Below, piece by piece: positions 288 to 62,607 of a stretch of DNA of 64,000 bases (positions are counted from its first letter, which is position 1; every line of letters begins with the position of its first letter). A model generated the notes under the pieces. The model worked only from the letters and a program-made list of their open reading frames with translations. It did not search any database and was not told the DNA's origin. Origin of the DNA: Tribonema minus (lineage: Eukaryota; Sar; Xanthophyceae; Tribonematales; Tribonemataceae). Both the position numbers and the translations under genes were made by a program. Location: contig JAFCMP010000116.1 in NCBI GenBank assembly GCA_017506865.1, forward strand, positions 62,001-126,000, written 5' to 3'.

Positions 288-480
288 CCTTCCAGTGACT
301 CGATCTGCACGAGAAGCCCCCCCCCCCCATCCCCTCATTCGCTTGCAGCAGCGCTCACCCTACGCCAAACCCTTTGCCCCCTCTTTCAGTGACTCCAGCC
401 CCTAGCGTCCGCTTGCAGCAGCGCTCACCCTAACCCTAACCTAACCCTCTGCCCTCTTCCAGTGGCTCGACCTGCCGGAG
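288..480 (+). repeat. Three tandem copies of the acceptor of the first recognised TMCO4 exon
   Basis: A unit of about 70 bases is repeated at 341-410 and 411-480, with an older relative at 288-340. Each copy carries a pyrimidine tract, a CAG and a start like TGGCTCGAC of the exon that really begins at 463. The last copy is the one joined to open coding sequence; the earlier ones soon hit stops or change frame. The real copy also contains CCCTAA-like repeats just before its acceptor. The rest of 1-287 shows no recognisable exon, and the true N-terminus of the gene was not found. Confidence 0.75.
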
Positions 481-3400
481 AAGGCCGTCGCGTCCGCGCA
501 CTTCACGGAGCGCCAGCAGCACGACCTCCCCCCCCACCAACGCACCCCCTGGTCGCAGCGCGCTGAGACGTGCTGCAACGAGCTGCCGCACGACGCGCAG
601 TGGCGCCTCGACGCAGTGCGCGACCTGCTGGTGCTCGTGGCGCTGCTGCACGGCTACGACGCGCGCTCCCGCGTAACGTTCCGGAGAATGTGCGCCGCGC
701 TGGGCGTCGCGTGGCTGCCCGCGGTGGCGCAGCTGGAGAGCCTGGTGGCGCGCCACGCGCACGACAGGATGGTGCTGGAGCTCGCCAAGCACCGCGCGCA
801 GGTGCGCTGTGTGACGGTGGTGTCTGTTGTATTAGATGCTTGTTGTATGGTTTGGCCGGAAGCGAGGACGGGTACACAGTACCGTGGCTCAGTGCTGCAC
901 TTGATGATCTGCTTGTCAAAGCGAGGATGGAGCTTGCCAAGCACCGCGTGCAGGTGCATCGCGCGGCGATGTCGGTCAACGTGCTCAAGCGTTGTGCAAT
1001 CAGGTGACAGGACAGTGCTCACTCACCACTCGTCTTGTAGCAGCATGATGTTGCTTGCCTGGGCCATTCCGTGCCCGCAGCGGATATCAAGTGCCGTGGC
1101 TCTTGCCAGCGTGAGGTTATGAACACAAACGTGCTTATCATGCTCAAGCTAAGCACTGCCTGCAGTGCGAGGGCGTGTTGCACACAGTGCTGCACCGCTC
1201 AGCGGGCAGAGCTTTCTCATATCCAGAGGCCGTAACATGCGCGCCCCCTTGTGGCCAAATTCTTTGTCTTCGATTGACATCACCTCAAAGCACGTGCACG
1301 TGTACACATACACCCGTCATGCACGCAGGGGACCGCAGACAAGTGGCGGCACTTGAAGATCGGCGCTGCGGCGGTGGGCGGCGGCGCGCTTCTGGCGTTG
1401 ACAGGCGGGCTCGCAGCGCCCGCGGTGGCTGCGGGTATTGCAGCAAGCGGAGCCATAATAGGCACAGGCGCGGCAGCAGCAATTGGAGCTTTTGCTACGG
1501 TGCCCATTTTGGTGTCGCTCTTTGGGGCCACGGGGGCGGGGCTGGTCGGCTCCAAGATGAGCAACCGCACTTCAGGGCTCACTGAGGTATGTATGGATGT
1601 ACGATGCAACTTCACTTCAACTTCACTTGAAGCACACTCTAGAAGTACTAGTACTGCAGTGATTACAACTACCGGGTACTGTACAGCTGAGACACAGGGC
1701 ATTTTAGTACTATGGCATCTGGCATCACGATTGTTGTGAGTCCACACACCTCATATTGAAGTACGCATAGCGTGCATAGCAACTGCAGGCAAATGCGCTG
1801 CAAAGCATTCCTGCATGCCTCAATGTCCGCACTGCTCCCCCCCCCCCCCCCCCCGCTGCCCCCCCTGTTCCAACAGTTCAAGTTTGAAGTGCCAGACCCC
1901 GATGCGCACGGCATGGCCGTGTGCGTGTGCATATCCGGCCTGCTGCGGGACGTCTTTGACTGTGAGCGGACGTGGGGCGTGGACCCCAAGGGGCTGGGTG
2001 CAAAAGAGCGTCTCGAGCGCTACTACAGCGTATTCAATCCGTCCAAGGTGACTCTCCGATGCTCAAACCCTAAACTCTACCCTCAACCCTAACCCTAAAC
2101 TTAGCGCTCACCTGAACCCTTACCCCAACCCTAACTGGTGACTCTCTGTGGTGCTCTCTGTCTATACACAGCAGTTTCATAGCGTATATCAAGTGTGTTT
2201 CCACGAGATGTTTGCTGAATGCTCTCATCCTGCGCCTGCCTGTCACTGTGGTTGGTGCTCTCTGTGTCAGAGTAGTTGCACCCTCATCTTCATCTGGTGT
2301 TTGGGTTCCATCACAGCGGTTTGATGGCACATATCGGGCGTGAGTCCACGAGATGTGCTTTTGATGCGCTCATCCTGTGCTGTAGCCTGAGGATGGGTTT
2401 GTGTCGAGCAGCATCTGGAGTTGTCATACTTCAGAAATAGCATACTCAGTATGCCACGGTGATGTCTGCATTTTAGCTGTATGTGTAGGACAATCTCTAG
2501 CCCTAACCCTGACTGCTGACGCACCACAGCGACCAGAACGATGTGTTTTGTGGTCTGTGGCATGCCCATCAGCACTGTTATCAGTCTGCTATGCCATATA
2601 TATGGCTCCTGTGCGGATCTGTACTTGGCCAAATGCAGCGCCCATGTTGAAGTTCACTGAATCAGAGGGGGCCTGTGCATCTGTGTGTCGTGACCTGTAG
2701 GGCGTGTATGGGGCGGGGGAGAGGGGGAGGGGGGGGGGGGGGGTACGTATCCTATCTACACCACCACGGCACATCACGCCGCTTCCTGTCCGACATGGCG
2801 GGGGTCCAGCCCACGCGCATTAGCCGCGAACATGAGCGCTGCTGCCATGTGGACCAACAAACGTCCACACCAGTAGCCACCAACTCACACCATGCTGGTG
2901 CATGCGCCATTCCCCCCCGCCCCCCCCACCCCCCAATGCTTTTCCAGGTGCCGGAGGTGACGTGCCTGCTGCGCGCGCACGCGGGGCGCGAGGGCGAGCT
3001 CTGCCGCAAGATGCGCGACGCGTACGGGCACGACCCGCGCAGACCCCTCACGCAGGCCGTCGCGAGCGCCGCACGCGCGCGCTCTGGCGCCGCCGCGGTA
3101 GTGCCGCCGTCCGCGCCTCCCGCTGCCGCGCCGCTGCTGGACGTAGAGGCCGCCAGCCAGTTGGTGGATGCGGTTCTGGCGCTGGGGGAGGGGCTGGCTG
3201 CGGGGAGGGGGGGCGGGGGGACATGGGGGCGGTTCAGGCCGCGACGCGATGCCGCAGCGGGAGGGGACGCGGCGGCGGCCGCGAACGCAGTGCTCTCTGA
3301 AGATGATGCGCAGCGGCAACAGCAGCAGCTGTCATCGCCGCAGAAGCGGCGCCTGCGGTGGCGCCGGCAGCAGCAGCTGCCGCCGCAGTCCCCGCCGCAG

Positions 3401-6400
3401 CCGCCGCCAGTGCCATTGCATGCGCAGCAGCAGCAGCAGTCGGTTATGCCCCAAGCGCCGCAACTGGAGCCATCGCTGCAGCCGCCGCCACCGCCACTGC
3501 ATCTGCCGCCACCCCTGCTAGCTCACAACACAGCAGGAACTGCTGCCACTGACTCAGCAATTCGCCTGCCTCGCGACCAGGAGCAGCAGCAGCAGCTATT
3601 GCCTTCGGCAGCACCGCCTCTGCTGCCACCAAGGCAGACGGTAGCGGCATCAGAGAACGGCGGAGGCAGCAGTCTGCTCAGCAGCAACAGCACCATCGAT
3701 GCTCAGGCTGGCAGCTGGCCCGGCGACGGCAGCGGCGGCATCAGCGGCATTGAGGCTGGCAGCGGCGGCGGCGGCAGTGGCAGCGGCAGCGGCGGAACTG
3801 AGGGCGGCAGCGGCAGCAGCGGCGGCAGCGCTGGCAATGGCAGCGGCAGCGGCGGCGGCAACGCCGCGCTTGCTGCCGCAGCCGCTGCCGCAGTAGGCGA
3901 CCCCTCCGCAGCGGCGGCAGCGGACGCGCTGGCAGACGAGACCACGGCGCAGCGCACGCGGGTGTGGTTCTGGAACGAGCTCATGCCGCACTCGGAGCAG
4001 CACCTGCTGGTGTGGGAAAGCAAGCTGCTGGTGGAGCTGGGTGACAGCGTGGTCAAGGCGCTGCAGGACGCGGGGCTGACGGCGCTGCAGCAGGGGCTGC
4101 AGTTCACCGCGCTGGGCGTGCTGGCTGCGGGTACGTATGTATTGTGTAGCTGCTGCGAGTAACTGCAGCGCATACGCGCATGTATGATGCAGCTGATTAT
4201 TTAATATGATGAGGCAGCGTGTAATGATTGATGATGACAGCTGCGGCGCGTCAGAGTGCGTCACTGATTTGCTGATCGCTGCAGAGGACACGCGGTTTAG
4301 GTGTAGCAGCTCGCGCCCCGTCATGCGCACTGGGTGGTGATTGCAGGGCGTGATGTGGATTGTGTCTCAATGCTCATGCTAAGGGTTGGGGTTAGGCTTA
4401 GAGTTACACCATAAGCTTGTGGTTCTGCGCGTGCAGACGACTGCTGGTGTACGGGGCATCACTTTCAAAACTTGAACCGACTTTGAATTGGTCAGACACA
4501 CTTGCTGGCGCAGCTGGGCCTACTTGCTCTGGCATCCATGTGCATCAGTACATTTGCAACGCATTGTTTGCTGCTGCGTGCTCATGGAGCATTCTACCAG
4601 CTTACCACTCCACTCGTAGCAGGCTGGCTCGGGACAAGCGTCAACAGCTCCTGCGCCATCAATTCACTTGTGCCTCACGTTGCTTCATCCTGGCACAAAG
4701 CACCCATTTCTGTTTGTCCCCCTTTCCCTTCCGTTCTCTCGTGCACAGCTGTATCGCTCCCAATCACCCTGGTGGCGCTGGCCGACTACATAGACTCGGA
4801 CTGGGCCATCGGGTGCGAGCGCGCGGACAAGGCCGGGAAAGTTCTCGCCGGCATTCTCCTTTCCCGGGAACAGGGAACGCGCCCCGTGACCCTCATCGGA
4901 ACCTCCATCGGCGCCAGGCTCATGTTCTCGTGCCTCGAGGAGATGGTTCGGCGGCATGAACTCTGGGAGGCCAGTGGTGACCCGGTGTCGCCGCCGCGCA
5001 AGGGCGCCAGGGAACGGTCGCCAGGGAATGGGAGGAACGGCAGTGGCGCCGGGAAAGGGAAACAACGGGCGTCGCCGCCGAGGAGGGGGAGGAAGGGGGG
5101 GGGTATGGGCGGGCCGTGCAATGCAGCTGGCATCATTGAGAACGCCGTCCTGCTGGGGGCGCCCGTCGGTGTGAGGTGAGTCACTGCTGTTGAACATGTC
5201 AAGTTGAATTTGAAGTTAAGGCAAAAAGCATGTATTTGCAGACTGTGAGTGCCGTGCAGATTCGTCACGGCACGCAATTGACGCTCGGGTGAGGGACAGT
5301 GTGAGTGTCCTCCTGCAGTACGTGTCACGCGCAGGAGTGGTGTTGCTGACGTGGCCCTGTCCTTGAATGGCTGAAGTCGGTCGCAACTAGCAGCAATGCA
5401 CTGCGTGGCCGCAGTGTCTTGGCAGCGCCATTTACGCACAACTGCTGACGCAAGACATGTGGAGTGGAAGCTTTTCCCCACTTCAACGCGCGCTCGCCTT
5501 GTCAAGAGCTCGACAAGGCTACACCGGTGGTGTTCTTTGATCACCTGCATGTGCGGTCACCCTGAAGTCTTCTTCCTCTGAACAAAGAAATGTCACTCTG
5601 CGGCGTGGCGTTCTTCATTTCCCTACGTGTGCACACACCCGCCCCCCCCAGTTCTACCTCTGAACAATGGTACAATGACACTCTGCGCTGCGCAGCCCGA
5701 AGTGCTGGCATGTGCACGGTCACCCTCAAGTCTTCTTCCTCTGAACGATGGCATTGTCACTCTGCGGAGTGGCTTTCTTCGTTCCCCTGCATGTGCACGG
5801 GCACGCTCAACTCTTGCTCTGAACAAGGACGATGTCACGCTGCGGAGTGGCGTTCTTCGTTCCCCTGCCTGTGCACCGTAACGGCCACCCCTCAGTCGTC
5901 CTATTCTCAACAATCGCAATGCCACTCTGCGCCGCGCAGCCCGAAGCGGTGGGAGCGCGTCGCGCGCGTCGTCCACGGGCGCCTTATCAACGGCTACTTC
6001 AAGAAGGACGGCATCCTCGGCCTCATCTACCGCATCCGCCGCCTTAGCGTCAGCGTCGCGGGCCTGCAGCCCATTGCGTCGCGCGCCGTAGAGAACGCGG
6101 ACCTCTCGCCTGCGCTGTCGCAGCACATGCAGTACTGCTCGCGCGTGCCCGAGATCATGGCGCTGCTGCAGCTGGACGACTGCAGGAGGTACGCGCGGGG
6201 GGCGCGCGGCGGCGGCGGCGGTACGTCGCCTGAAGCAGCGGATGCCTGCGGCGACGGCAGCAGCGGCGACGATGGCAGCGGCAGCGGCGACAACGGCGAC
6301 GGCGGTAGCAGCGGCGGCGGCAGCGGCGATTGTTGTATAGACGACAGCGACCATTACTCCCCTGAGCTTGGCGGCGGCGGCGGCAGCGGCAGCGGCGGCG

Positions 6401-7592: not shown

Positions 7593-7931
7593 ATGCCACT
7601 CTCGGTTGCCGAGGCTATTGTGGTCGGCAGCGTAGTCGGACCGCTCATTCTGGGCGTCATTCTGGGCGGGTGTGTATCCCACGCTGCTGACAGATTAGCT
7701 AGCACTCCTTTGATGAGCCTCAGGCTGCCGGAGGAGGGCATGAGAGTGTCGCGCAGCACGCTGCTCTTGCCAGGGCATGTGCGTTCGGGCGTGGATACCG
7801 CAGAGTTCGTGGAGGTAGAGGATGGCGAGGCGGACAGCGGCAAGAACGAAGAACCTACGGCGAAGCTTGAGCGAAGACTTTCTTACCCTGAGAGGCGCAA
7901 GGCCCTCAAATGCCGGCTCTGCACTGTTTGA
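7593..7931 (+). CDS. Hypothetical small protein with one N-terminal hydrophobic helix
   Basis: An uninterrupted 112-residue frame from ATG 7593 to TGA 7931. Residues about 5-27 form a hydrophobic Val/Ile/Leu/Gly helix with PLILGVILGG. A charged stretch follows (about 75-105) with EFVEVEDGEADSG and LERRLSYPERRKA. I do not recognise a family. The end of the frame lies in a two-copy repeat (7893-7945 and 7981-8030), which resembles the exon-edge duplications of proven genes here, so this could be an exon of a spliced gene. It could also be chance; no neighbour or domain supports it. Confidence 0.3.
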   Translation: MPLSVAEAIVVGSVVGPLILGVILGGCVSHAADRLASTPLMSLRLPEEGMRVSRSTLLLPGHVRSGVDTAEFVEVEDGEADSGKNEEPTAKLERRLSYPERRKALKCRLCTV

Positions 7932-39000: not shown

Positions 39001-42000
39001 ACGACCGCATACTACCATACCTACACGAAAGTGAATCAACAGATCGTAGAGCTCTAGGTGACAATCCCCAACTTCACTTCCCTTGCGTGCTTCCGCCTGT
39101 GACGCTCCCGCAGCAACATCTACTTTGTTGCGGTGACGCGCTGCAACGTCAACCCCGCCATGGTGTTTGAGTTCCTGTACCAGACCATCAAGATCTACAA
39201 GGCGTACTTCAACACGCACAAGACGTTCGAGGAGAAGCACGTGCGCAAGAACATGACGCTCATCTACGAGCTGCTGGACGAGACCATGGACTACGGGTGA
39301 GTCAAGAGTCATTGACTCTGAGTCGCCACTCATTTGCGTGCAAGTGTTGGTGACTCGTGACACCGACACTCAAGTGCGATGAGTGGCGACTCAAAGTCTA
39401 CACTGGTCGAATCTGAGCCTCTTGTGGTTCAGCAGTTAATGAGATCGTGAATTATGGGTGTGGCATGACTCATCGATTCAACTCTGACTCACCACTCTCA
39501 CTATTCATCACTGTCAAGTGCATTCTTTTACGGGACTCGTGACTCAATGACTCTGGTTCACCACTCTCAGGAGTCAGTGTGTCGCGACTTCTGCATTGCT
39601 GGAGTGTTGCGTGAGGGTTCATATGGGGTAGAGCAAAATGGTAACAGAACACCTTTCAGGGTCATGAGGTCAAGCTAAGCTCCACCCGTAATTGCTCCAC
39701 ATGTACAGAGAGCTCTGCGCACTGTACGCCAGCCATAACCCTAATCCAAACCCTACCCAAATTAGAAGTGATGCTTGTCAACAGAATCCCTCCATTGTGG
39801 GCAGTGGGCTCTTTGCCCAGAAGGTTCGGTGAGTATGTAGTGACCAAGAGGTGGGCACCGAAAACACGATCAATACCCCCATGATACCCATGTCGCCCAC
39901 AGAGTCTGGCCTCTCACTTGTGCACCATGCGCGGCTGCTGTCTAACCCTAAGCCTAACATCAACTTGACTACTGTGGATCCGATGGCACTGTTTGACTCG
40001 TGGCCAATGATGGCAACAGCGGCGACCACGGTTATTGGTGGAAGGCACTCACAGCTAACCACCCCTTGTCACCTAGAGCTCTGCGATCTTTTGATTTGTT
40101 TCCATCAATCCTCACAGCTATCCCCAGATCACCTAACCCTAACCCTAACCCCAACCCTAACCCTAATTCTAACCCTCACAGCTATCCCCAGATCACTGCC
40201 ATCGACGTGCTGCGGAGCTACATCAACCTGGGCTCCATCAGCACCCTGGACGGTGACCCCAACGAAACAGGTCAGCTCACGTCTCAGATCACGGGCGCCA
40301 TCGACTGGCGCCGCGAGGGCATCCGGCACCGCAAGAACGAGGTCTACATCGACGTGCACGAGTCCGTCAACCTGCTCATGTCGAGCACTGGCGCGGTGAG
40401 TTCACATGTGCAGTACAGCGCACTCGCGTGTACTGTTTGTGTACTGTTCGTGCACGAGTCCGACAACCTGCTCATGGCAGGCACTGGCGCGGTGAGTTCA
40501 CGAGTGCAGTACAGCACACTCGAGTGTACTGTTTGCAGGGGTTATCACGACTCTACCACCGGAGTCGGCCGACGACTCCGCTCCGACTCCGCTCCGGCCG
40601 GGGAGTCGTTCGGCTTATCTCATTGCTCCGTGGAGTCGGAGTCGGAGTCGTTCACCGAGCAAGTTGTTCCGGCTGGAGTCGGAGCGGAGTCGAACAGTCG
40701 CCCCGGAGCGGAAGGCCCCGACTCGTCACATCTCCGCGGAGCGGAGACGGAGTCGTACAGATATTGTGGAGTCGTGATAACCCCTGACTGTTTGTGTACT
40801 GTTCGTTCACGAGTCCGAGCACTGGCGCGGCGAGTTCACAAGTGCAGTACAGGCGCGCTTGCGTGCACTGTTTGTGTACTGTTTGTGCATCCTTGTGGGC
40901 CGCACAAATAGTGGTGGTCTACTTTGCATTGTCACGCATAAATTTCTGGGTTTGTTTGCTCAAACTGTACTGCAATGTGGCAGAGAGCAGCTCTGACAGG
41001 TAAGGTCTCTATGACACAGAGTAACACACCAGCGCAGGCGCCACTGCGGTTGCAGAGCGACTGAGTACTGACTCAATGACTCGCGAGTCACTCCCCCCTC
41101 CCCCTTCCCATGTCGCCACCCACAGGTGCTGTGCTATGACGTCACCGGCAAAGTGATGATGTGCCCATTCCTGAACATACAAGCACCCGACTCCCGATTC
41201 TGACTCGTGACTTGACTCACGAGCCATTGCACCCCCTTCTCCAAGTGCTGCACAATGATGTCACCGGCAAGGGGGCATGATGCGCACATTCCTACTGCAT
41301 GCCGAGTCTGACTCATGACTCACGAGTCATGGCGCCCCCTTACCCCCCCACCCACCTCCCCAGGTGCTGCGCAACGACGTCACCGGCAAGGTCATGATGC
41401 GCACATTCCTGAGCATGACATCTGAGTCTAACTCATGACTCACGAGTAACCGCGCGCCCCCATCCCCCCCCCCACAGGTGCTGCGCAACGACGTCACCGG
41501 CAAGGTCATGATGCGCACGTTCCTCAGCGGCATGCCGGAGTGCAAGTTTGGCCTCAACGACAAGCTGATAATGGAGAAGGAGGCGCTGGAGCGCGCGGGG
41601 GGGCGCACCGCCGCCACCGCGCACGGCAAGCGCAGCGTGGAGCTGGACGACTGCACGTTCCACAGATGCGTGCGCCTGGGCAAGTTTGACGCGGACCGCA
41701 CCATCACATTCATACCCCCCGACGGGGAGTTTGAACTGATGCGCTACAGGTACGTGGCTCATCAGAAATATGTTGTCAATAATGCTTTGAACACTGAAGC
41801 ACATCTGATCCAATGCTTTGTGCACCAAAGTAAACCTCTGCTTGGAAAGCAGCATTGTCGAGTAAGCATATACATATGTGTTCGACACGGACCGCACCAT
41901 CACATTCATACCCCCCGACGGGGAGTTTGAACTGATGCGCTACAGGTACGTGGGTCATGGGTTTTACGCAAGGCGCAAGGTTATGTGCACCGATGTATCG

Positions 42001-43928
42001 TACTCGTACATACTAAGTACCATTGGTTAACAAGGAGCCTGTGTGTTGTTGAATGTGGGCCGCACCATCACGTTCATACCGCCCGACGGGGAGTTTGAGC
42101 TCATGCGCTACAGGTGGGTTGCTGATGGGAGATGCTGGCCCAATGCTCTGTACACCAAGGTAAAACAGCTGACCCAATGCTCTATACACCCAAGTAAACC
42201 TCCACTCAATGATGAGAAAAGAAGCATCGCCGAGTAATGACCCCTCGGCTAACACGATAAGCATTTCGAGTTGCTCCAGGCCTCTCAGCACTTTCATCAA
42301 CCACGCACGTCTCATCGCCATCATCTCACCCCTTACCCTACCGCCGTCGCGCGCAGGGTGTCGGACAACGTCAACCTGCCCTTCAGGATCGTGCCAGCCG
42401 TCCAGGAGGAGGGCCGCACGCGCGTGACCATCAACCTTAAGTGCTCCGCGCAGTTCTCGTACAAGCTGTTTGCGGAGAACGTGGTCATCAAGGTGCCCGT
42501 GCCCAACAACACGGCGCGGTGCCGCGTCAAGGCAAGTCACCACTCCTTCACTTCAACTATAATCTGAAAGTATGATTTGAAGTACCTGTGAGCTCCTTAG
42601 GCAATGGCATCAGTGCCGTTGGCGCACTGTGCAGTGCACTGAAGGGGTGTAGCACGGGCCACTGCAGGGAGTCCTCACCATGTCTTCTTTAAGTATACAC
42701 TTCATATGTACATACAGGCGCACTTTCACCGTATCACTTTGTCATTGCCACCCTCTGCAGCAGACATGCATGCTCAACCCCACTATGTACCAGTGCAGGG
42801 AAATGCAGGGGAATGCTGCCCCCCCCCCCCCCCCGCCCCTGCTTACCTATTGCCCATTGCACCCCCCCCCCCTCCCCCTCCAGGTCACATCCGGCCGCGC
42901 CAAGTACGAGCCTGAGCAGAGGGCCATTGTATGGCGCATCAAGAGGTTCGCGGGGATGACGGAGTGCACTTTCAGCGCCGACGTGGAGCTGACGCCCAGC
43001 ATACGCGAGAAGGCGTGGTCGCGCCCCCCCATACAGGTATACATACCGTTGCAGTCTGCATCTGTTGAAGTACATACCGTTGCAGTCTGCATCTGTTGAA
43101 GTACGCCCAGCATATGCGAGAAGGCGTGGTCGCGCCCCCCCATACAGGTATACCCCCCCCCCCCCCTTCCCCCTTGTTGAAGTCTGCGTTTTATCCTGTT
43201 GAAGTACGCACACCCATCGAGATGAGTTGATCAAAGGCTGGCCTCTCATGTTGCGCGCGCAACTTGCACGCTGATTGTTGAAATATGCGCTTGTAATGGC
43301 GATGGCGTTGTAAGTCAGCCCGCAAAGGGGATGATCAACGAGGGACCACTGTACCAGCAGGGCTCAGCGCTCTAAACCCTGGTTGTGCTCAGAGTTAAGT
43401 ATGTGCTCGAGTCTCCTCAGCGCACCAAGCCCTAGTTGTACTCAGAGTTAAGTGTTGCTCACCCTTGACAACTGAATGACTGCAACTGTTTGATGTTAGA
43501 CAAATAATGTCCATTCGTTTGCAACAACCGTTTCAAGCTGGCAACACCTCCGTTCTGCTCGCTCGCTCACTCGCGTCGCGCTCGTCAATGCCACCGCCGC
43601 TATCAGGCGGAGTTTGTGGTGAACATGGTCACGGCAAGCTTGGTTTCAGATGAACAACGTCAATTTGTATGCCACAATCGCCTCGCACTGATGTGCCCCA
43701 AATCATCTCCCGCTGGCAATACATGCCCCCGGCCTGCTTGCTCACTCACTCTCGCCGCGCCCGTCAACGCAACCAAACTGCCCCAATCAGGCGGAGTTTG
43801 TGGTGAACATGTTCACGGCGAGCGGCGTGCACGTGCGCTTCCTGCGCGTCTACGACAAGTCGGGCTACACCACCAACCGCTGGGTGCGCTACATGACGCG
43901 CGCGGGGCACTACCAAGTCAGAATCTGA
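36056..43928 (+). CDS. AP2M1: AP-2 clathrin adaptor complex, mu subunit
   Basis: Eight exons, 36056-36085, 38213-38367, 39114-39296, 40182-40395, 41478-41749, 42357-42531, 42884-43036 and 43791-43928, join in phase into 439 residues, the usual size. The tiny first exon encodes [10 protein letters not shown], matching the family start, and is followed by [14 protein letters not shown]. The longin-like half contains [24 protein letters not shown]. After the linker, [13 protein letters not shown] starts the mu homology domain, with [58 protein letters not shown] and the end [16 protein letters not shown]. In animals this subunit binds Y-x-x-phi cargo signals and PIP2 at the plasma membrane during clathrin endocytosis. 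Introns 1 and 6 use GC donors. Six of the seven introns contain duplicated exon edges, and intron 4 holds a [17 protein letters not shown] favours AP-2 over AP-1. Confidence 0.95.
36086..36087 (+). other. GC splice donor of AP-2 mu intron 1
   Basis: CAG|GCGAGT after [10 protein letters not shown]; joins phase 0 to AAAGGGGAG at 38213, reproducing the conserved family N-terminus. Confidence 0.8.
37941..38280 (+). repeat. Acceptor echoes of AP-2 mu exon 2
   Basis: Three units of about 120-130 bases begin ACTCATGCCTGTGC at 37941, 38071 and 38190. Each holds the acceptor and about 60 bases of exon start (GGGGAGATAGT-AT-AGCAGG). Only the third continues into the complete exon; the first two turn from ...CGCTCAGC into AGGATGA and end. 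Confidence 0.92.
38335..38665 (+). repeat. Donor echoes of AP-2 mu exon 2
   Basis: The exon end with donor (GG-AATACCTTCATGTACAC-CGACACAG|GTG) at 38335-38380 is followed by copies at 38425-38475, 38525-38580 and 38625-38665. Each is followed by a GCGGC-GTTGC intron segment. Identity falls with distance. Confidence 0.9.
38820..39180 (+). repeat. Acceptor echo of AP-2 mu exon 3
   Basis: About 110 bases including acceptor and 64 bases of exon ([18 protein letters not shown]) occur at about 38820-38925 and again at 39073-39175. The first copy diverges right after TTTGAGTT; the second continues as the real exon from 39114. Confidence 0.93.
39027..39070 (-). repeat. Dispersed repeat, copy 3 (fragment)
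   Basis: GTGAATCAACAGATCGTAGA followed by GCTCTAGGTGACAA matches the end of the ~110-base repeat at 11371-11480. It sits between the two copies of the exon 3 edge. Confidence 0.65.
39283..39500 (+). repeat. Donor echo of AP-2 mu exon 3 and GACTC-rich repeats
   Basis: GAGACCATGGACTACGGGTG at the exon end is echoed by GAGATCGTGAATTATGGGTG at 39441-39460. Both are followed by GACTC- and CACCACTC-rich intron sequence. The copy is clearly decayed. Confidence 0.65.
39993..40105 (+). repeat. Dispersed ~110-base repeat, copy 2
   Basis: Matches copy 1 (11371-11480, opposite strand) over the whole length, in intron 3 of AP-2 mu. The core includes ACCACGGTTA-TGGTGGAAGGCACT and CTTGTCAC-TAGAGCTCT. Ends are undefined. 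Confidence 0.7.
40113..40197 (+). repeat. Acceptor echo of AP-2 mu exon 4 around CCCTAA repeats
   Basis: CACAGCTATCCCCAGATCAC occurs at about 40115-40134 and again at 40177-40196, separated only by CCCTAA-type telomere-like repeats (40133-40176). The second copy starts the real exon at 40182; the first runs straight into the repeats. Confidence 0.9.
40359..40860 (+). repeat. Donor echoes of AP-2 mu exon 4, split by a MITE
   Basis: The exon end with donor (CACGAGTCCG-CAACCTGCTC, GCACTGGCGCG|GTGAGTTCAC) at 40359-40404 recurs at 40451-40504 and, shortened, at 40804-40836. Each copy is followed by a GTGCAGTACAG block. The MITE at 40536-40786 separates the second and third copies, so it inserted after the array formed. 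Confidence 0.9.
40536..40786 (+). mobile_element. hAT-like MITE, 251 bases
   Basis: Perfect 18-base terminal inverted repeats (CAGGGGTTATCACGACTC at 40536-40553 and its complement at 40769-40786) are flanked by perfect 8-base direct repeats ACTGTTTG (40528-40535 and 40787-40794). An 8-base target duplication and ends starting CAGGG fit the hAT superfamily. The inside is GC-rich with repeated GGAGTCGGAGTC, has no transposase, and would be mobilised in trans. Perfect ends and duplications indicate a recent insertion. Confidence 0.92.
41090..41530 (+). repeat. Acceptor echoes of AP-2 mu exon 5
   Basis: Four copies of the acceptor plus about 50 exon bases (GTGCTGCGCAACGACGTCAC...) start at about 41127, 41247, 41365 and 41478. 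Only the last continues as exon. Between copies lies intron sequence with ACTCATGACTCACGAGT. Divergence rises with distance from the exon, from almost none at 41365 to many changes at 41127. Confidence 0.93.
41690..42125 (+). repeat. Donor echoes of AP-2 mu exon 5
   Basis: The exon end encoding [19 protein letters not shown] with its donor (41690-41760) recurs at 41880-41952 and 42056-42120. The copies keep the reading frame, CTACAG|GT and several intron bases. The 42056 copy has diverged more. Confidence 0.93.
42532..42533 (+). other. GC splice donor of AP-2 mu intron 6
   Basis: AAG|GCAAGT after NNTARCRVK; joins phase 0 to GTCACATCC at 42884. This intron shows no junction echo; a C run (42815-42834) and a C-rich tract precede the acceptor. 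Confidence 0.85.
43000..43150 (+). repeat. Donor echo of AP-2 mu exon 7
   Basis: CGCCCAGCATA-GCGAGAAGG...CATACAG|GTATAC at 42993-43042 is repeated at 43104-43152, nearly identical. The spacer itself contains a duplicated CATACCGTTGCAGTCTGCAT block. Confidence 0.93.
43560..43830 (+). repeat. Acceptor echo of AP-2 mu exon 8
   Basis: About 85 bases ending GCGGAGTTTGTGGTGAACATG-TCACGGC-AGC occur at 43565-43650 and 43740-43830. The first copy's exon part then diverges; the second is the real exon from 43791. Confidence 0.92.
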
Positions 43929-45062: not shown

Positions 45063-48000
45063 ATGAAGGTGTTCGCCCTGTTCGCTCTGCTGCTGGCCAG
45101 CGTGAGCGCCTTCATGCCCGCCACGCCCGCCAGCTCCTTCGTCGCGAAGGCTGGCGCAGCAGTAAAGCCCTCGGCGTCCTCCATGCAGATGTCTGTGTTC
45201 ACTGACGCCACGGAGGCCTTCAGCAAGGACTACCCTGACTTCTACAAGGTGAGCTGTCCTGATTGCGCGGCAGGCGGACGCTGAGCACCTGAAGGTTGCG
45301 TCTGCGCATGTGGGCTCAGTTCTGAACGATCATTTGCGCCATCGCTGACCTGCTGCTGGTGATGGTAATGCTGCTGCTGTTGTAATGTGCGCAGGCGGGA
45401 TGGGGACCCACCACTAAGGCAGAAAGGTGACCGCTTGCGTGGCCACGTACACAGCCTGGCGCGCTGGGCACGCGATTTGCTGAGATGGCTGTGAAAAGTT
45501 CTGATGCAGTGCGGATATGTTGTCAACGAGCTCAGCGCAGTCTGCCTGCTGGCCCGCATGCGAGCGCGGTGCGCGAGGTCACGTGCTGTGATTGCGCGTC
45601 CAGGCACTCTCACGGTGTACCCGTCCAGGCGGGTGCCTTGTCGTCCGCCAAACCCACATGTCAGAGCAGCTGACCTGCTTGTCCTTGGCGATGCAGGTGG
45701 AACGGACGCCACGCCATGTTTGGGTGGGTGCTCATTGTCGCCACCGGATACGCCAAGGCACACGGTCTGATCCCTGACCCGGAGGTGGCGCTTAACCTGA
45801 AGGAGTGGGGTACGCTGTCTATCCTGGCTGGGCCCCAGACTATCTCCAATGAGGTAAGATGCACTCCGTTGCAGGTGGATTGATGGCGTTTCTGGAGATA
45901 CCCGACGATGTATCGAAGTGATGCAGTCACTCAGGCAAATGCATTGAGCAGAAGTTGACACTAGCCGCTTGCTGCCCATGAGCAACTACATCAACAGCTG
46001 CTACTGACAACGACCTCCAGGTAGCTGCGATACAGTTTTATTTGCCAGGCTTGTTCTGCGCTGGAAATTGGCGGTTCTGTCAGAGATGCGCTATTGCCCA
46101 TCTGTATGCCCTGGCAAGCGCAGCTGTCGGTCATGCTGCTGCTCCATACAATCCGAATGAAATGAGGGCCAGCTGTAGGCACATGCCTATAAAAGAGAAG
46201 AGCACATATGGACACTGTCTTTGTACAGAACTACAACAAAGCGAACATATGGGTGCCGTCTATGCGAACGGAGGGGGCAAGCGATGACCATACATGTGTC
46301 CAAGCACACCAGGCAAACGCAGGATTGCCACACACATGGCGTGTGCTCACACTCTCATCGTGCATGGACCGGCCAGTGCGCAGTCACAGTTGCTGTTGGG
46401 TGCCGTACGCTACCTTTAAGTGGCCTTGTGGCTACCATCATTGGACCGCTCTGACACCAGCTTGCTGCTGCCTTATTGTGTTTGTCTCCGCTCCACAGCG
46501 CGCTGTCGTTCTGATCGCCAACGTACACGCGGTGAGTCCATGCAACTGCCACAACTATGTGCAATATGATTTGTTTAGTCCATTGTGGGAGGTATGCTGA
46601 GAGCTTTGGTACTCGTTGCAAAAGCCATGTTTCATGAGCCGTGATGTGATTAGCGAGACTACGCAACAGCATTGTCGACAGTGCACGTGCCCTGGGCTCA
46701 TTAGCCCAAACATCCAATACAGATGTGTCAAAGATCGCGTTGTGCACCAAGCGTGCTTCGTCATCGTCCATTTTGCGCCACGTGGCAAATGCACTGCTGT
46801 TATGATGGCGTGTTCTGCGTGAGGCTAGTGCATACTGCTCCACTTCGTTCTGGATGCTCTAAGTACCCTGCATACATACCCTGAACCGCTGAGCAATGCT
46901 GACTGACCCCCTTCCCCCCTTGTGCCCCCCCTCGCGCTCTGCAGCTCTTCATGAGCCTGTGCGCAGCGTTTGCCCCCCTCAGCTTCCAGGACCCCCTGCT
47001 GATCCCCAAGGGGCAGAAGGACGAGCCCGCAGCTGGTCTGATCCCCGCTATCGTGCCCGGCCTCACCAAGGAGGCGGAGCTCCTCAACGGCCGCCTTGCC
47101 ATGCTCGGTAAGCGCAAGCGCAGTAGCACAGTTCTCGTAGGCCGCCTTGCCATGCTCGGTAAGCGCACTAGCAAAACTCATGGAGCAGTACTTCAAAGTA
47201 GTAAGCAGATTTGGCCGCCTTGCCATGCTCGGTAGGCGCAAGCGCTGTAGCGAAGCTCACAGAGCTGTGCTTCAAATGATGCGGTAGAGGTTGCCAGCTA
47301 CATTGAGGCCGCGGCGCCAGCGGACATGGCTGGTGTCATTGTGTAAGTGAGGCAAGGGCCATGCCTGGTCAGGGCACCATCAGGATTCAGCAGGCAACAG
47401 GCGTTGGCAGTCGAGCGCTAGCAGACATGCCCAGGTGTGTGACTGCATGAGGCATCGCAGAGCATCAGTACGTGCTGCTGATGCTATGTAGGCAGGTGCC
47501 TGCTTAGTTGGCGACCTAAAAAGATGTGCTGCCGACGCAATCTGCGGCCAGGGCAAGCATTTGAGCACTTGAAGTTGTTGAAGTTGTATCATGTTGATCG
47601 CAGGCCTCTGAGCCACGGGCATGTTGCGGCTTGTTGCCTTTGCACAAGGAAAATGTTGATGCAGTACCATGGCTGGAACACCTCCCCAAATTCTGCCTTG
47701 CGATGTCGTTTGTTTTTCATCTTTACTCTTAAAACAGCCGTGACACTCTTGTGATGAACTCAATTTGTGGCACTCACAACAGGTTTTTGTTGAGATGCCT
47801 ATCACACTGACCCACCATGCATAATTATGCATAGCCTTGGGTTGAAGCTCTCTAATCATCCATGGTTGGCCAGATACGGGGGGTCATCTCCTGAGGGGTG
47901 CGGGGTTGGGGAAGAGGATGCTATAACTGGAAGGAAGCACTGGTGTCTCAACACCGCAGTGCAGACGGCAAGCAGCTGGAATGAAAGCTGATGGCGCACA

Positions 48001-49907: not shown

Positions 49908-52749
49908 CTACCAGTGCAGTGTCCAGCTGCCCGCCTGCATGAACGGGTGCAGGTAGTAGGCGCCAACGGTGCCAGCAGCGATGATGGCGTAAGGGCCGCG
50001 CGCCCACTCTTTCCAGTAGTCCGCTGGCAGTTTCTGGCGACCCTCAATGACTGCTTGGAACGGCATCACGCTGCGCGCAGTCACGGCGGCGGAGGGCGCA
50101 AACGGAGCGGACGAGGAGGTGTTTGTGAGCCTGTTGAGCATCAGCGATGCAGCACGATTTTCCCATTTTTGGCGACCTTCAATGACAGCCTTCGACGGCA
50201 TCACGCTGCGCAGTCGCGGCGGCAGTTGGTACAGGAGGAGGTCGCTGTCAGCCTGCTGAGCATCAGCGATGCAGCACGGTTTCAGCACCCCCACAGATGT
50301 TGCCCCAGACCAATGACCCCTAGACCGATGACCCAGTCTGGACACTTCAAGTGTGTCAGTCAGTCACCATTCAAGCATCACATTGTGAGGTACACCAGTC
50401 ATCCATTCACTATGGAGTTTCGCCAACAAGTGACAACAAAGCTGGCACAGTCCTTATCTGTCCCCTATACAATCGCTGCCTGTGAATAATGTGCAGTGGA
50501 TGCTCCCCTCCTGACCCGAACCCCAACCCCCAAACTAGTATCCCGCCATCGCTCACGCTCCCTGACTCGATAAAACACTGTCGGTTTCCTGCATTTGTTT
50601 TGCATACTCATGACTGTACAGCAGTTGCCTGTTGCACTGTCCAATCACGACAGCACGCCAAATCCACAGAAAAGCATCGGCAGCCAACTTCAACCCATAC
50701 TTCAACAACCCACCTCGTCCTGGCCTTGACCTTCTCGAACGCCTCCCCGTACTTGTCCGCGAGCCTCCGGTCGCCGTTCCACACGGCAAAGAGGTGGTGG
50801 CCCATGAGCATGGCGCTGGTGAGCAGCGTGAAGGACGTACCTACCCACAGCGCGTGCGCGAGGCACCAGATGCCCTGGCCGACAAACTGCGGGTGGCGCG
50901 TGATGCGCATCACGCCCGTCTCCCACATGTGCAGCTGGCGACGGCGGCGGCGGCGATACGGTAGGCATGGGCGCACAACGGCACACGACGTGGGAAGCGG
51001 TGCTGTCAGCGTCACTGGTGTAAAGCGTATCGCATCAATCCGTGCGACCGTATGCTACACTGTCAACAGTGGGAACAAGGCAGTGCGATCAAGCGGCAGC
51101 CTTGCAGCGGCAATCACTTGCGTCTCGACGCACATGGCGCTGGAAGTTGAAGTTGGGTGGTCCTGCACAAGGAGGCGCATCTGCCTACTGCACAGCTTGG
51201 TGCGGTGCCTGTTTCAGCACCAGCTGTACGCATTCAGGGCTTAACTACCTCTAGAGCACACCAGTGATGATGGTCACGCTCTGTATGTTGGGTCTTAGAA
51301 GCATGGGCCATGCACAAGAGCTCACCGTTAGAAGGAATTGGGACAGGAACACCACGCAATGCACACCAGCACAACGTACCGCTACAGCAGCAGCGTGTCT
51401 CACACGCACCTGCGGTTTGTCAACGGCAGCAACCTCCAGCAGGTTGAAGGTGCTCGGGTACAGGAAGAAGAAGGATATGAAGCTGCTGATCCAGCAGAAG
51501 TCGTGCACCCCCGGCACGCCCTTCAAGTTCCACAGCGCCACGCCGTCGTAGCGGTGGTTGATAAAGTACACGAGGCACGACAGCGCTAGCGGCAGCGACA
51601 CCACGCCAAATAGCACGCGCCACGCGCGTGCGCCTATGATCTCCTCTCCCTTGGGGCGCAGCGACGCCAGACCGCTGTGCGCCACCGCGAATATCCCCAG
51701 CAGCAGCACGATGGTCACCGAGCTGAGTGGGGGGGGGGGGCAGTGCGGCAGTACTTTGAGTTGGCCGTTGTTGCAGTGACGATAATGGGCACTGCAGTGG
51801 ATTAGGTAGGAGAGCACTGCTTTGAGCACAGCAGGCGTTATTTGGTCAGATTGCCGCAAGCATTCGTGATGAGTTTGAACATGATAAGTTCAGCAAGCAG
51901 CAAGCGCATGCACAACGTGCATAGTGTCATCGTCAAGAACTGGATGTACCTCCAACTGTCAATTAAGGGACTTGTTCGACAGTTCTGTTCCTTGCGCCAG
52001 AGCCAGCGTTAGACACAGAGTGAGTCCCTAGAGTGAAGGCTCTATTCAAATCTGGCAATTTCTCCTGGCCGCACTGCAACTGCAGCAGCAGCATATGTAC
52101 AATCCCATACGTATTTGCCTACAGCAACAGGCACACCATCGCTACACGAACAGCACGAACAGCAATCCTGGACAAAGTGTAGATTTTCGTTGTTCCAAGC
52201 GCCGAGAACACCAGATTGAAATAATGCACTTGTGTGTACGTATTGTTGCAGTGGCCTCTCTTCGAGCCGTGGGGATAGGTCACCGCAACCTTGTTCGAGT
52301 ACACCCCGTGCAAAACCTAACAGCAGAAAGCTGGCAGCTTGAGCGCACCTGTTGCCGCCGCTCACACTCTCCAGCGCCCGGATGAAGTCATCACCGTAGC
52401 CTGTACTCTCGTTGATCCACAAGTACCAGAGTGCAGCCATGACGACAGTGAACACGCCACCAAAGCTGATCCAGCTGGCCAGCTTCTGCTCCTGCAGGCT
52501 GAAGGCTGCTGCGTCCTCTCCGATCAGCCCTGACGCATCCTGCAGCTCCTCGATGTCACGTGTGGAGAGTTGCAACGCGCTGCTGGTGCTGCGCCTGATG
52601 TCACTGCTGTGCATGAATGCTGACTTGGCACCGGCATGCCGCTGTACCAGACTGCCGTACCTGGTGCCAGCGGGTGCTGCTGGCAGCGTCCACCCCCAAA
52701 CATGCTGACCGGCCAGGCATGTGACCGCTGCGACGCCAGCCAGCCTCAT
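49908..52749 (-). CDS. Z-ISO: 15-cis-zeta-carotene isomerase
   Basis: Exons 52749-52349, 51722-51410, 50934-50714 and 50070-49908 join in phase (2, 0, 2) into 365 residues. The enzyme, an NnrU-related heme-dependent membrane protein, isomerises the 15-cis bond of zeta-carotene in plastid carotenoid synthesis, between phytoene and lycopene. Signatures: [21 protein letters not shown] and [12 protein letters not shown] in exon 1; [47 protein letters not shown] in exon 2; [20 protein letters not shown] and [18 protein letters not shown] in exon 3; [20 protein letters not shown] in exon 4. The conserved His residues of HSG and RHPQ are present. The N-terminus has a hydrophobic signal ending [11 protein letters not shown], where a Trp may stand for the usual Phe at the cleavage site, then a transit-like stretch. 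Converges with RedCAP, another plastid gene. Confidence 0.93.
50035..50280 (-). repeat. Acceptor echo of Z-ISO exon 4
   Basis: Two units of about 130 bases, 50035-50160 and 50168-50279, share GGCGACC-TCAATGAC, GACGGCATCACGCTGCGC (minus strand GCGCAGCGTGATGCCGTC) and GAGCATCAGCGATGCAGCACG. The unit at lower coordinates holds the functional acceptor (50072/50071). The other lies in intron 3, with its acceptor still recognisable. Confidence 0.88.
51728..51740 (+). repeat. C tract of the Z-ISO exon 2 acceptor
   Basis: A G run on the plus strand is a pure C run on the gene strand, ending three bases before ACTCAG at the exon 2 acceptor. Confidence 0.7.
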
Positions 52750-56294: not shown

Positions 56295-56458
56295 GCTTGT
56301 GCTTGACTGCCTGGCTTGCTGCTTGGCTTGCTTGACAAGTTGTTCAATGACAACAGGCCTGCACTTCCAAGTGCCTGTTGAAGTTGCAGATTTGATGCGG
56401 GGACTCACCATTGGCCAGGCGCCTACCACTGCGTTGGCTGCAGCTCTATAGATCTAGC
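56295..56458. promoter_or_regulatory. Bidirectional promoter region of BOLA3 and the SPT3-like gene
   Basis: 164 bases between divergent ATGs must hold both promoters and 5' UTRs. No specific element was recognised. Confidence 0.45.
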
Positions 56459-59400: not shown

Positions 59401-61269
59401 CGCATTCTGTGTTTCCTGAGAGCCGCACAGACTGTGTCTACTTACCCGGAAGTTAGTGCTCATGGATTCCAAACACCCTACACTGCATTTGCTGATGATT
59501 GCTGATGATTGTGCTTTACCAAACACTCCCCCGCACACGCAGGCGTTTGCGGACACGCGCACGGTGCAGATGAGCGGTGCTGCCTACGACACATTTGCCA
59601 AGCAGCGCCACGCCTTCTTTGTCACATACAAGCACGTCGCCAAAGACAGGGAGGGAAAGGCTAAGCCAATCGGCTACGGCTCGGACGCCTACTTTCTACG
59701 GTGGCTCGGCTTCCCCAGCACGCGCGTGCGCCGCGCCGCAATTAAGGTGAGCATATGCACAGATTTGTCATCATCGATGATGGTTTTCAAGTAGTGGTAT
59801 TGGGCATGCAAATGCGGTCACTCCGCCACTGTATCCACTTTTTTTTCTGTCAAGTTAAGTTGCCGCACAAGGACTACGGTATTAGCCTACTTCAGAAGTA
59901 TGCACCTAGAAGTCATGAGCAACGCACTTGCGGTTCTTGTCGCATGGTGAGGGTCTCCACTCGAAGTGCACTATGCATCGCACCGCTCAACACACACACA
60001 CTTGAAGTTGACGCCCTGCCGTTGGCCTAAATGCGGTACAGCAACATAGTGTATCAGTAGCACCAAAAGTGAGAGCGTATGGCATTCCGTGTGGTTTCGG
60101 CCAAAGACGCATTCTGACAGCAGTGTGCTGGTGCGCCATTGATTGTGCATTGCTTGACGCACGCGCTTGAAGTGTACCACACAGTTGAGGTTTACACGCA
60201 GCTCTGGCTCTGCACGTGCTGATCAGTGCTGCCTGTTCTACACCTATATGCATGCATATTATTCGAAGTACACAGTATCATGAGCCCCACATGGCATGGT
60301 CGCTCTTCACTCAGTCTCAGCTGCGCAGGCCTGCTATTCATACAGTTCATCCACAGCCCTTCAATTCACCTGCTCACCTTGATGGCCATAGCTGGTATCC
60401 ATGAACGGCGCATGACATCACACGTCCAATACACGTATGCGCACACAGCACCCCTTGACCGCCCCCGCCGATCGCTGTGACGCTCTCGCCCAATGGCCAT
60501 AGCTGGTACACATGAACAGACGGCGCGTGAACACACGTCACAAGCACAGTATGTGCACATGATAGCCCTCCGGGCGCGGGAAAAGTCCTAGGGACGCGTG
60601 CAGGTACAGAGCACCATGATAACACATACTCTGTCAACACCTGTCACAGGCACAGTATGTGCACACAACACCCCCTGAGCTCCTCCTGCCGATCGCTCTC
60701 ACTCCCCCCAGGCGCTGGCCTACCTGGTATACAACCATGAGGCGTTGTGCTGGACTGCGGCCATTCATGGTAATTCACGTTCATGAACGGCGCATCAGTA
60801 CGTGTCGAATGCATGCACGTCGCACATACAGTACGTGCACAACGCCCCTTGATCTCCCCACGCCGATCGCTACGACGTCCCCCCCCAGGCGCTGGCCTAC
60901 CTGGTATACGACCACATAGGCGTTATCATCGAGGAGGCCATCAGGCGCCGCGCCAACGCCCCCGGCGACGCCCTGCGCTCCCTCCCCTCCGACCGCCCGC
61001 TGCGCACGCCCGAACTTCAACAAGCGCAGTCGCAAATTCCGCGCCTCGTCCTGCCCCCGCACCACGACGGCCTGCGTGGCATCGCGCTGCCGAAGCTGCC
61101 CACTGGCATACGGTATGTAGGCGATCCGCGCGCATGGCCGCTTTCTGCGGACACGGACGCTGCAGTGAGCGTGTGGCGCGGCGGCGGCGCGGCGGCGCTG
61201 CAGTTTGACTACAGGGAGCTGGGCGCGCAGGCGAACGAGATGCTGCGCCTGTACCAGGGGGAGGGTTAG
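56459..61269 (+). CDS. SPT3-like subunit of the SAGA co-activator complex
   Basis: Exons 56459-56831, 57282-57391, 57705-57782, 58226-58657, 59543-59746 and 60889-61269 join in phase (1 then 0) into about 525 residues. The identification rests mainly on the C-terminal half: ADTRTVQMSGAAYDTFAKQR (about 334-353), a WLGF segment, and ALAYLVYDHIGVIIEEAIRR (about 400-419), which match the SPT3/SUPT3H tail. The N-terminal FTKEICDMIVAFGG and RQIVEAVNRGTGQAFFTIDDLK fit a histone fold of SPT3/TAF13 type. SPT3 helps SAGA deliver TBP to promoters; nuclear. Exon 4 has a long Asp/Ser/Gly-rich insertion. Exon 2 could end at 57310 (CTG|GTGTGT) instead of 57391, also in phase. The stop TAG at 61267 lies inside TTAGGG-like repeats. 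An alternative donor at 61265 would splice to 61584. Confidence 0.65.
57991..58022 (-). repeat. Dispersed repeat, copy 4 (fragment)
   Basis: GGAAACGAATCAAAAGATCG followed by TAGAGC matches the end of the repeat at 11371-11480. It lies in intron 3 of the SPT3-like gene. Confidence 0.6.
58658..59170 (+). repeat. Minisatellite filling the start of SPT3 intron 4
   Basis: About 15 degenerate copies of a 30-36-base unit around GTTACACTTCGCTTGGTGACGTGCCTGACA begin directly at the donor (GTGAGTGACGCG...GTTACACTTCGC). The donor-proximal bases look like the founder of the unit. The array ends near 59170. Confidence 0.85.
60365..60925 (+). repeat. Acceptor echoes of SPT3 exon 6
   Basis: The acceptor with exon start GCGCTGGCCTACCTGGTATAC (real one at 60889) is copied almost exactly at 60711, with CCCCCCAG before it. 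Weaker relatives, ATGGCCATAGCTGGTA, lie near 60381 and 60493. Units also share CACAGTATGTGCACA and GCCGATCGCT upstream. Confidence 0.85.
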
Positions 61270-61310
61270 GGGTAGGGGGTCAGGGTTAGGGTTAGGATTG
61301 ATGAGGGCTT
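61264..61310 (+). repeat. Interstitial TTAGGG-like repeats at the SPT3 stop
   Basis: GGGTTAGGGGTAGGGGGTCAGG and further TTAGGG variants begin at the last codons of the SPT3-like frame and provide its stop codon. Confidence 0.8.
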
Positions 61311-62607
61311 GATACTGTTGCTGAGGTTTAGGGGTGTGCTTGCCTCGTAGCAGAGCGCGGCTGCTATGCGGCGCGACAACGGAGGCTCTGGCGCTGGTCA
61401 ATATCAGCGGGCTGCTCAGTTCTCGCCCAGAGCTCACCAGAACCTGAGACCGTTGTGTCAGCTGAGACCATGTGCCAGCTAGCCCTGATCAGCTTGCAGA
61501 GGCAAATTCCACAGTATGACTCAATGTTGACTTGCAGTATGACTCAATGTTGACTTGCAGTATGACTCAATGTTGACTTGCAGGTGGTGCTGATGCCGTT
61601 TTCATGGCACAGCCCAGCAAAGACCGCAACATTGATATTTGGTGATGGTGAAGCTCGTGTGCAGTGGAGCTTTGCCGTTTTACTTCAAGTCCATGGCGTC
61701 CTTTTGTGTACACCTCTGTACAAATGGCACGGTCACATGCGGACGTGGCAGTGCGGTCTGCAACCATGCGCACTTCACATTGACTACAGGATGCCACAAA
61801 CGAACACTCCACCACAAGTCAATACACGGTGTGTTGCACACAGCTGCACAGCCGGAATATCATCATGTTGCTGCTCACATTGCTGCTTACATGACATTGT
61901 TGAATGGGCCTCAGCTCGTCCCCAGATGGCAGTCAAAACTGTTGATGAATGTCTTGACAGAGTAGTGGATGAGCTGTGTAGATTTGGCGAATGCGGACCT
62001 CAAGCATTGTGGCACCAGATTTGCGTTTGTACGACAGCAGCTGCATCGGACATGCAAGGCCTAAACCACACTTTGCTGAGTTTTTGCCACATGCAGTGCA
62101 GCAAGCCTTCGAATATCTGGTGAATGCTAAGAAGCTGTGGTGTTGTGTGCCTGGTGGAGTGGGCTGGTGCTGCCGGACTGCAAGCGTTTATCGTTGTTGT
62201 TATAATAAGCAATGGACTCAACAAGCAAGGTTTGTTCTGCATTCTATCCCTGACGCTGACCCTGACCCTGCCCCTGACCCCTGTTACCCCAACTGAGCGT
62301 TGCACAGCCGCAATGGCCTGAGGACCATGCAGTGTGCGCTGGAGTTCTATTCCTATACTTGGAAAATATGTACATGCAGTAAGGTAGGCATGCGTAGCAA
62401 AACCCTGAAGTCCTCTCAGAGCGAGACCAGAGATGCGGAGGTTGCCGACACACAGGCACATTTTTCACACATACCACGCTCCGTGTGGCTGAGTCGCACA
62501 TGTACGAGATCACGCAAGGCATCCATGCCGGCAACTGTGAAAGAGTCCCTGGTCTTGAATCACCAGTACCGTGTGTATGTACGTTTCGGGTTAGGGTCAG
62601 GGTTAGG
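61270..62607. other. Region downstream of the SPT3-like stop
   Basis: Apart from telomere-like repeats and the 23-base triplication at 61515-61583, this stretch holds a 181-residue plus-strand frame (61578-62123) with abundant Cys and His and no recognisable domain, judged non-coding. Directly after the triplication, a different frame reads GADAVFMAQPSKDRNIDIW then stop, a plausible alternative C-terminus for the SPT3-like gene. GACCCTG-rich repeats lie at 62250-62280 and TTAGGG-like repeats at 62588-62607. Confidence 0.4.
61515..61583 (+). repeat. Perfect 3 x 23-base repeat of an acceptor-like site
   Basis: Three identical 23-base units (61515-61537, 61538-61560, 61561-61583), each TATGACTCAATG and ending TTGACTTGCAG, i.e. 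each ends in a perfect acceptor-like CAG. The sequence after the last unit may be an exon. Confidence 0.9.

Follow-up and report, generated by a model that had tools for sequence, protein, structure and literature searches.

Why do introns in one stretch of the Tribonema minus genome so often carry tandem copies of the edges of their own exons? The stretch, hereafter the window, comprises 64,000 nucleotides (positions 62001–126000 of contig JAFCMP010000116.1, within the 158-Mb assembly), and an earlier note on its sequence described splice junctions that recur, together with a short length of adjoining exon, inside the neighbouring intron. We call these copies junction echoes. They prove to be a real and genome-wide feature; a bias of tandem duplication towards exon–intron borders is likely, although not proven, and the best reading of the data, which we regard as probable, is border-biased tandem duplication that lengthens introns.

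Echoes at independently fixed exon borders

Exon borders were taken from three proteins mapped onto the DNA, and are therefore independent of the repeats. For AP-2 mu, a hand-built splice model was 100% identical to the EukProt transcript protein P0001 over the whole 429-residue query, the next-best matches being Chrysoparadoxa (80%) and Ectocarpus (78%). For arginyl-tRNA synthetase (ArgRS) we used the annotated NCBI protein P0121 of T. minus. Gene labels and composition had hinted at a haptophyte source, a reading rejected because AP-2 mu is closest to stramenopile proteins and ArgRS matches a T. minus record. The borders of CCT5, which lies outside the window, came from a third transcript protein, P0241, of whose 537 residues stretch L035 covers 78–411. 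The two reference genes in the window are as follows.

36056..43928, forward strand: AP-2 mu gene, 8 exons, from spliced mapping of transcript protein P0001
36056-36085, 38213-38367, 39114-39296, 40182-40395, forward strand: AP-2 mu exons 1–4 (P0001 mapping)
41478-41749, 42357-42531, 42884-43036, 43791-43928, forward strand: AP-2 mu exons 5–8, with the stop inside the last (P0001 mapping)
29590..35602, reverse strand: ArgRS gene, from mapping of P0121
34795-35602, 33554-33786, 31908-32078, 30474-30836, 29590-29922, reverse strand: annotated ArgRS exons (P0121)

One AP-2 mu intron has a GC donor (GCAAGT, at 42532), which the transcript protein supports. The NCBI model of ArgRS includes 23 residues (29854-29922) that are absent from our own model, possibly through a misplaced acceptor.

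Self-alignment of the window recovered the arrays. With a minimum alignment score of 40, an echo was present in the intron at 9/14 AP-2 mu junctions and at 5/8 ArgRS junctions; under a probe criterion, the CCT5 part carried echoes at 11/20. Across the three genes 25 of the 42 junctions were echoed, although these are not random genes, since two lie inside the window and CCT5 was chosen after overlapping family hits. Those hits came from a chaperonin profile search, blind to repeats, in which partial matches next to exons were duplicated; in one instance, profile positions 52-88, 53-81 and 51-147 all matched inside 700 bp. One CCT5 donor is followed by four echoes, a five-copy array with a spacing of ~139 bp and scores falling from 91 through 85 and 79 to 74. 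The arrays of AP-2 mu and ArgRS are listed here with the identities of the aligned copies.

37939..38265, forward strand: AP-2 mu acceptor array, exon at 38213; three copies, spacing ~120-130; 174/208 and 73/89 identical
38322..38675, forward strand: AP-2 mu donor array, exon end 38367; copies 38418-38581 and 38518-38675; 130/166 and 122/172
38814..39173, forward strand: AP-2 mu acceptor echo, exon at 39114; 38814-38918 matches 39071-39173; 93/105
40107..40196, forward strand: AP-2 mu short acceptor echo, exon at 40182; 40107-40132 matches 40171-40196; 25/26
40353..40889, forward strand: AP-2 mu donor array, exon end 40395; copies 40449-40535 and 40816-40889; 79/87 and 67/74
41061..41537, forward strand: AP-2 mu acceptor array, exon at 41478; three upstream echoes; 229/314, 182/252 and 86/112
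41684..42202, forward strand: AP-2 mu donor array, exon end 41749; copies 41880-41958 and 42057-42202; 76/79 and 115/149
42992..43153, forward strand: AP-2 mu donor echo, exon end 43036; 42992-43042 matches 43103-43153; 50/51
43537..43823, forward strand: AP-2 mu acceptor echo, exon at 43791; 43537-43639 matches 43712-43823; 89/112
33750..33953, reverse strand: ArgRS acceptor echo, exon start 33786; 35/41
33174..33596, reverse strand: ArgRS donor array, exon end 33554; 254/343 and 70/83
32047..32800, reverse strand: ArgRS acceptor echoes, exon start 32078, with an overlapping 243-bp intron array; 53/68 and 33/38, internal 300/382
31716..31964, reverse strand: ArgRS donor echo, exon end 31908; 57/62
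30789..31235, reverse strand: ArgRS acceptor array, exon start 30836; 172/234 and 61/81

Telomere-like CTAACC repeats occur at 18884-18940 and at 40132-40176, the latter splitting the two copies of the short acceptor echo. An element at ~40537-40788, with 18-bp matching terminal inverted repeats recognized by eye, resembles a small DNA transposon; this putative transposon sits within an echo copy of an AP-2 mu intron.

The earlier note had also claimed that, in several arrays, decay increases with distance from the exon, and this agrees with our scores: among 19 arrays with several copies, the echo nearest the exon scored higher than the farthest one in 14 and lower in 5. To the idea that the arrays are an artefact of assembly we give almost no credence, given that single substitutions and indels distinguish the copies, that they occur on many contigs and that transcript proteins fit around them.

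Echoes in other genes

We extended the survey with a home-made gene finder. Its training set was the window plus 15 stretches of ten kilobases, of which ten surround CCT genes and five were placed at content-blind coordinates (one of these five adjoins the window); four kinesin regions were then scanned in addition. Tested on the seeds used for its training, the gene finder gave 5/7 AP-2 mu exons exactly, and its calls took in 92% of the profile-supported exon sequence. It misread some in-frame echoes as exons (L035 5630-5716 and 9421-9507, both skipped by the transcript protein), which has probably lowered the echo counts. A loose setting that produced hundreds of tiny exons was dropped.

The sample comprised 105 gene-finder introns of 120-1800 bp from 19 loci, with both flanking exons at least 60 bp long. 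A junction echo was present in 42 of them, with 30 donor and 20 acceptor arrays at 50 of the 210 junctions, and there were 14 internal-only arrays. Echo-bearing introns were found in every group of loci (window 10/22, CCT 18/53, arbitrary 8/17, kinesin 6/13), and made up 32/83 outside the window. Looser gene-finder settings gave 26/107 and 35/108 introns. When each intron was shuffled once, no arrays were called, compared with 64 in the real introns, and shuffled probes were positive at 0/210 junctions. The proposal that most junctions are amplified in this way therefore needs qualifying: it describes the three well-defined genes, but not the gene-finder sample.

A further test used sliding 60-bp windows and a threshold reached by ~1% of shuffled windows. 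A nearby copy was found for 49% of windows at donors (115) and 41% at acceptors (119), compared with 24-42% within introns, 18-24% at 80-120 bp inside exons and 9% in intergenic DNA (373 windows).

Form of the duplications

The copies are direct, in the same orientation as their source and near it, with offsets of 64-302 bp in the 50 junction arrays; printed internal arrays have similar offsets (68-293). The exon part has a median length of 46 nt in donor arrays and 38 nt in acceptor arrays, and it is sharply limited: it exceeds 80 nt in 1/50 arrays, where uniform placement expects 16.5 with a minimum of 6 in 5000 draws, and lies at 40-60 nt in 22/50, compared with 9.8 expected. The limit also holds among arrays whose exon and offset leave room for a longer exon part (22/23 at most 70 nt). 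Beyond the donor, the intron flank was still homologous (p ≤ 0.05) in 18/27 donor echoes and fell short of that in 9/27, and the five-copy CCT5 array aligns over its intron part as well. At the exon-side breakpoints, examined in 30 donor echoes, no microhomology was visible: the 6 nt beyond the edge gave 1.30 matches, compared with 1.50 at random, although decay has blurred these edges. Introns with an echo had a median length of 807 bp (42 introns), compared with 506 bp for those without any array (55), a contrast to be read with the caveat that long introns also give more room for arrays.

These properties suggest the following scheme. T. minus genes would recurrently gain tandem duplications at offsets of ~65-300 bp, in which the duplicated segment takes in 10-80 nt at either edge of an exon and runs into the adjoining intron. 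Through the outermost copy the complete exon would still meet a functional splice site, leaving the mRNA unchanged, while the inner copies become intron; repeated events at one border would build an array and a longer intron. The excess at borders may reflect a higher rate of duplication there, or better survival. The molecular event, for which the earlier note named replication slippage or break repair, may be the joining of break ends that were staggered or filled in, a suggestion that follows from the lack of visible microhomology. Exon copies longer than ~80 nt would be lost, presumably because they compete as splice sites. Reed and Maniatis reportedly showed such splice-site competition, in which the inner of two donors would prevail given enough exon context, and the limit on the exon part appears to fit this idea. 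That donor copies always lie downstream of their exon and acceptor copies upstream, a pattern remarked on in the earlier note, is a logical consequence of border-spanning tandem duplication and no separate finding; that exons stay whole is likewise the way such a duplication reads out.

The nearest named process is intron gain by tandem duplication, described for ATP2A1 and potato RdRp (PMC4974935). It belongs to the same mutational class, and resembles the T. minus case in the short duplication, the intact or nearly intact mRNA and the copied splice signals. Might the introns themselves have originated when an exon segment carrying AGGT was duplicated? In T. minus no new intron is formed; instead, in many genes, an intron already present grows longer from its border. 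The cross-intron similarities that intron gain predicts were absent: the end of the upstream exon resembled the end of the intron in 0/104 introns, and the start of the downstream exon resembled the start of the intron in 0/104, in a test that covers recent gains, as old ones with decayed similarity would escape it. Moreover, the distance between the outermost echo and the far splice site has a median of 651 bp and is never below 65 bp. We consider this origin highly improbable.

Are borders favoured?

Because a conserved exon keeps one copy legible, visibility accounts for part of the border excess, and the dominance of border events is overstated. In the extreme case, duplications would be placed evenly over introns, and the border-spanning ones would simply remain recognizable for longer. 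Simulated uniform placement, under assumed substitution and indel rates in 48 array-free introns (median 525 bp, compared with 645 bp in the full set), gave a junction share of 0.24-0.38 up to moderate divergence and of 0.53-0.71 at high divergence, a rise that needs no hotspot; the observed share was 0.78.

We therefore called arrays from intron sequence alone, exon-masked, which removes the visibility advantage of the exon. Border-spanning duplications then made up 33/48 arrays by overlap and 29/48 when the register had to match (bootstrap over loci 0.47-0.75), compared with 0.25-0.36 in simulated uniform placement. Outside the window the figure was 23/38 (p = 0.0018 against 0.36). The odds of a duplication falling at a border are ~2.7 to 4.6 times those of uniform placement. 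Furthermore, the exon parts are at least 90% identical in 34/50 arrays, a range in which the simulation detects at least 84% of internal duplications. The over-representation across borders that the earlier note anticipated is therefore supported, and intergenic arrays were few (2 in 25.6 kb). Even placement with unequal visibility seems unlikely to be the whole account, although it deserves to be taken seriously.

Several results weigh against a border bias, or at least against its simplest form. Intronic 40-nt probes immediately beside the border were duplicated in 20/134 cases, only slightly above the 9/92 at mid-intron, as unequal visibility would have it, compared with 32/134 for exon-edge probes; 74 low-complexity border probes were excluded from this test, and mid-intron probes were taken only in longer introns. 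Repeat coverage showed no border peak (0.14-0.19 within 360 bp of the nearest border, 0.10 beyond). The number of junction arrays varied with gene-finder settings (29, 41 or 50), and stricter border rules in an earlier pass gave 31/100 introns. Finally, when two echoes of one intron were compared with each other, the exon-derived part had a mean score of 48.6 and the intron-derived part one of 24.6; the former was higher in 30/34 echo pairs and in 13/13 locus-by-type groups. Exon-derived parts are thus better preserved than under a simple neutral model, which gave a simulated difference of 0.5-5.6.

The exon's role as template, together with faster indels in introns, accounts for only part of this gap in preservation. 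By our reasoning, copying of echoes from the conserved exon at different times would give up to a ~twofold difference in divergence between the two parts, and sub-repeats in the intron parts add to the gap. Constraint may also contribute. Gene conversion, or templated patch copying, would account for it differently: an exon edge and a few donor bases would be re-copied into the intron or would overwrite older echoes. Some echoes with exon parts 97-98% identical beside flanks lacking clear homology would fit this, as at 41684-41762 and 41880-41958 (76/79) and, in a second case, at 42992-43042 and 43103-43153 (50/51). However, the residual flank homology in two-thirds of donor echoes (18/27) is what plain tandem duplication gives, and the asymmetry can stem in part from exon constraint, the faster intron indels and the sub-repeats. 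As an explanation of the echoes, conversion appears distinctly unlikely. Copying of the patch only, the exon edge with a few donor bases, was rejected on the same flank homology, but is retained as a rival.

A stronger form of border-biased duplication is possible, although we hold it only tentatively. Duplication aimed at borders, perhaps coupled to transcription or splicing, would be a main source of intron growth in the lineage, with the exon serving as a repeated template; only exon copies shorter than ~80 nt would survive, since longer ones would prevail in splice-site competition. As part of the same tentative proposal, exon-derived echoes may stay young by conversion or re-copying while their intron flanks drift.

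Spare splice sites

Selection for spare splice sites had been put forward in the earlier note as one cause of the echoes, and splicing enhancers or decoys could be maintained in the same way. The exon-derived part does change slowly, and 76/138 differences between exon and echo (42/50 pairs) are synonymous, 0.55 compared with 0.27 expected if only the echo changed, but synonymous change in the exon itself contributes to this share and may explain it. An excess of third-position differences (81 compared with 33 and 24) was considered as a sign of protein-level constraint on echoes and rejected, being confounded by exon synonymous changes and by the mutability of codon positions.

The splice signals themselves behaved as expected of neutral sequence. 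Once pairs with less than 80% gapless identity (2 donor, 3 acceptor) had been set aside, the echo GT was kept in 23/28 cases (23.9 expected under neutrality) and the echo AG in 14/17 (14.6), a decay at the rate of the exon part. Offsets modulo 3 were distributed 19/15/11, and the outer splice sites agree with the transcript proteins P0001 and P0241 as well as with one annotated protein. Since the GT and AG of echoes are lost as fast as neutral sequence would be, the data give spare splice sites no support, and we judge maintenance by selection very unlikely.

Further arrays and other features of the window

The remaining arrays of the window are listed next; the gene labels TMCO4, RedCAP, Z-ISO and SPT3-like are those of the earlier note and are putative.

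776..957, forward strand: putative TMCO4 donor echo; 776-805 matches 928-957; gene-finder exon end 801
5527..5952, forward strand: acceptor-side array; gene-finder exon at 5940
47089..47251, forward strand: donor echo; 47089-47127 matches 47213-47251; gene-finder exon end 47107
50031..50282, reverse strand: putative Z-ISO acceptor echo; offset 135; acceptor judged by eye
60652..60924, forward strand: putative SPT3-like acceptor echo; gene-finder exon at 60889
61512..61583, forward strand: array of three identical 23-bp units with a putative CAG acceptor at its end; no exon bases in the units

The last of these is not an echo in the strict sense. Where the earlier note counted at least 16 introns in 7 genes, the arrays exist but are slightly fewer: our recount gives ~14 introns in 6 genes (AP-2 mu 6, ArgRS 3, TMCO4 2, RedCAP 1, SPT3-like 1 and Z-ISO 1), with one further short acceptor case in TMCO4, at 463, beyond the two introns counted there.

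Rfam at gathering thresholds gave no match anywhere in the window. A 32/62-bp minisatellite of ~15 copies occupies 58662-59170, not at any junction that we could define. Two similar open reading frames, at 22372-22839 and 26530-26997, look by eye like a glutathione S-transferase-like pair.

Known systems and significance

Intron minisatellites, and intronic tandem repeats in general, are tandem arrays with slippage-like growth. The T. minus units differ from them in including the exon edge and the splice site, and in the excess of arrays that span borders.

Small tandem duplications arise at induced breaks when filled-in 3′ overhangs are joined by non-homologous end joining (Schimmel et al., 2021; PMC8355091). 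They are attributed to near-blunt joining, and no microhomology is visible at the blurred edges of the T. minus echoes; the abstract of that paper is silent on exon–intron borders. Joining of staggered, filled-in ends would be the most likely route to the echoes. Ectocarpus, a related stramenopile, resembles T. minus in its long introns (median 524 bp on autosomes; PMC12477816) and in having splicing signals in exons, the same source citing work on exonic splice enhancers. Its tandem repeats are reported there by site class, and junction echoes such as those of T. minus are not among the classes in the part of that paper available to us. No earlier description of junction echoes was found in the literature searched, among the matches listed and as far as their texts were open, with most subscription journals outside the coverage.

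The arrays have a practical consequence for annotation, as some echoes are called as exons by a gene finder and some yield overlapping domain hits; automatic annotation of the T. minus genome may hold the same error. For the organism itself, they point to a simple route by which introns can lengthen from their own borders, of which ~40% of the sampled introns bear a trace. They also amount to natural experiments in splice-site competition, in which near-identical donors and acceptors are presented with graded exon context and copies with more than ~80 nt of exon are nearly absent, so that the length of exon that a splice site needs in order to win, a long-standing question, becomes testable from genome data.

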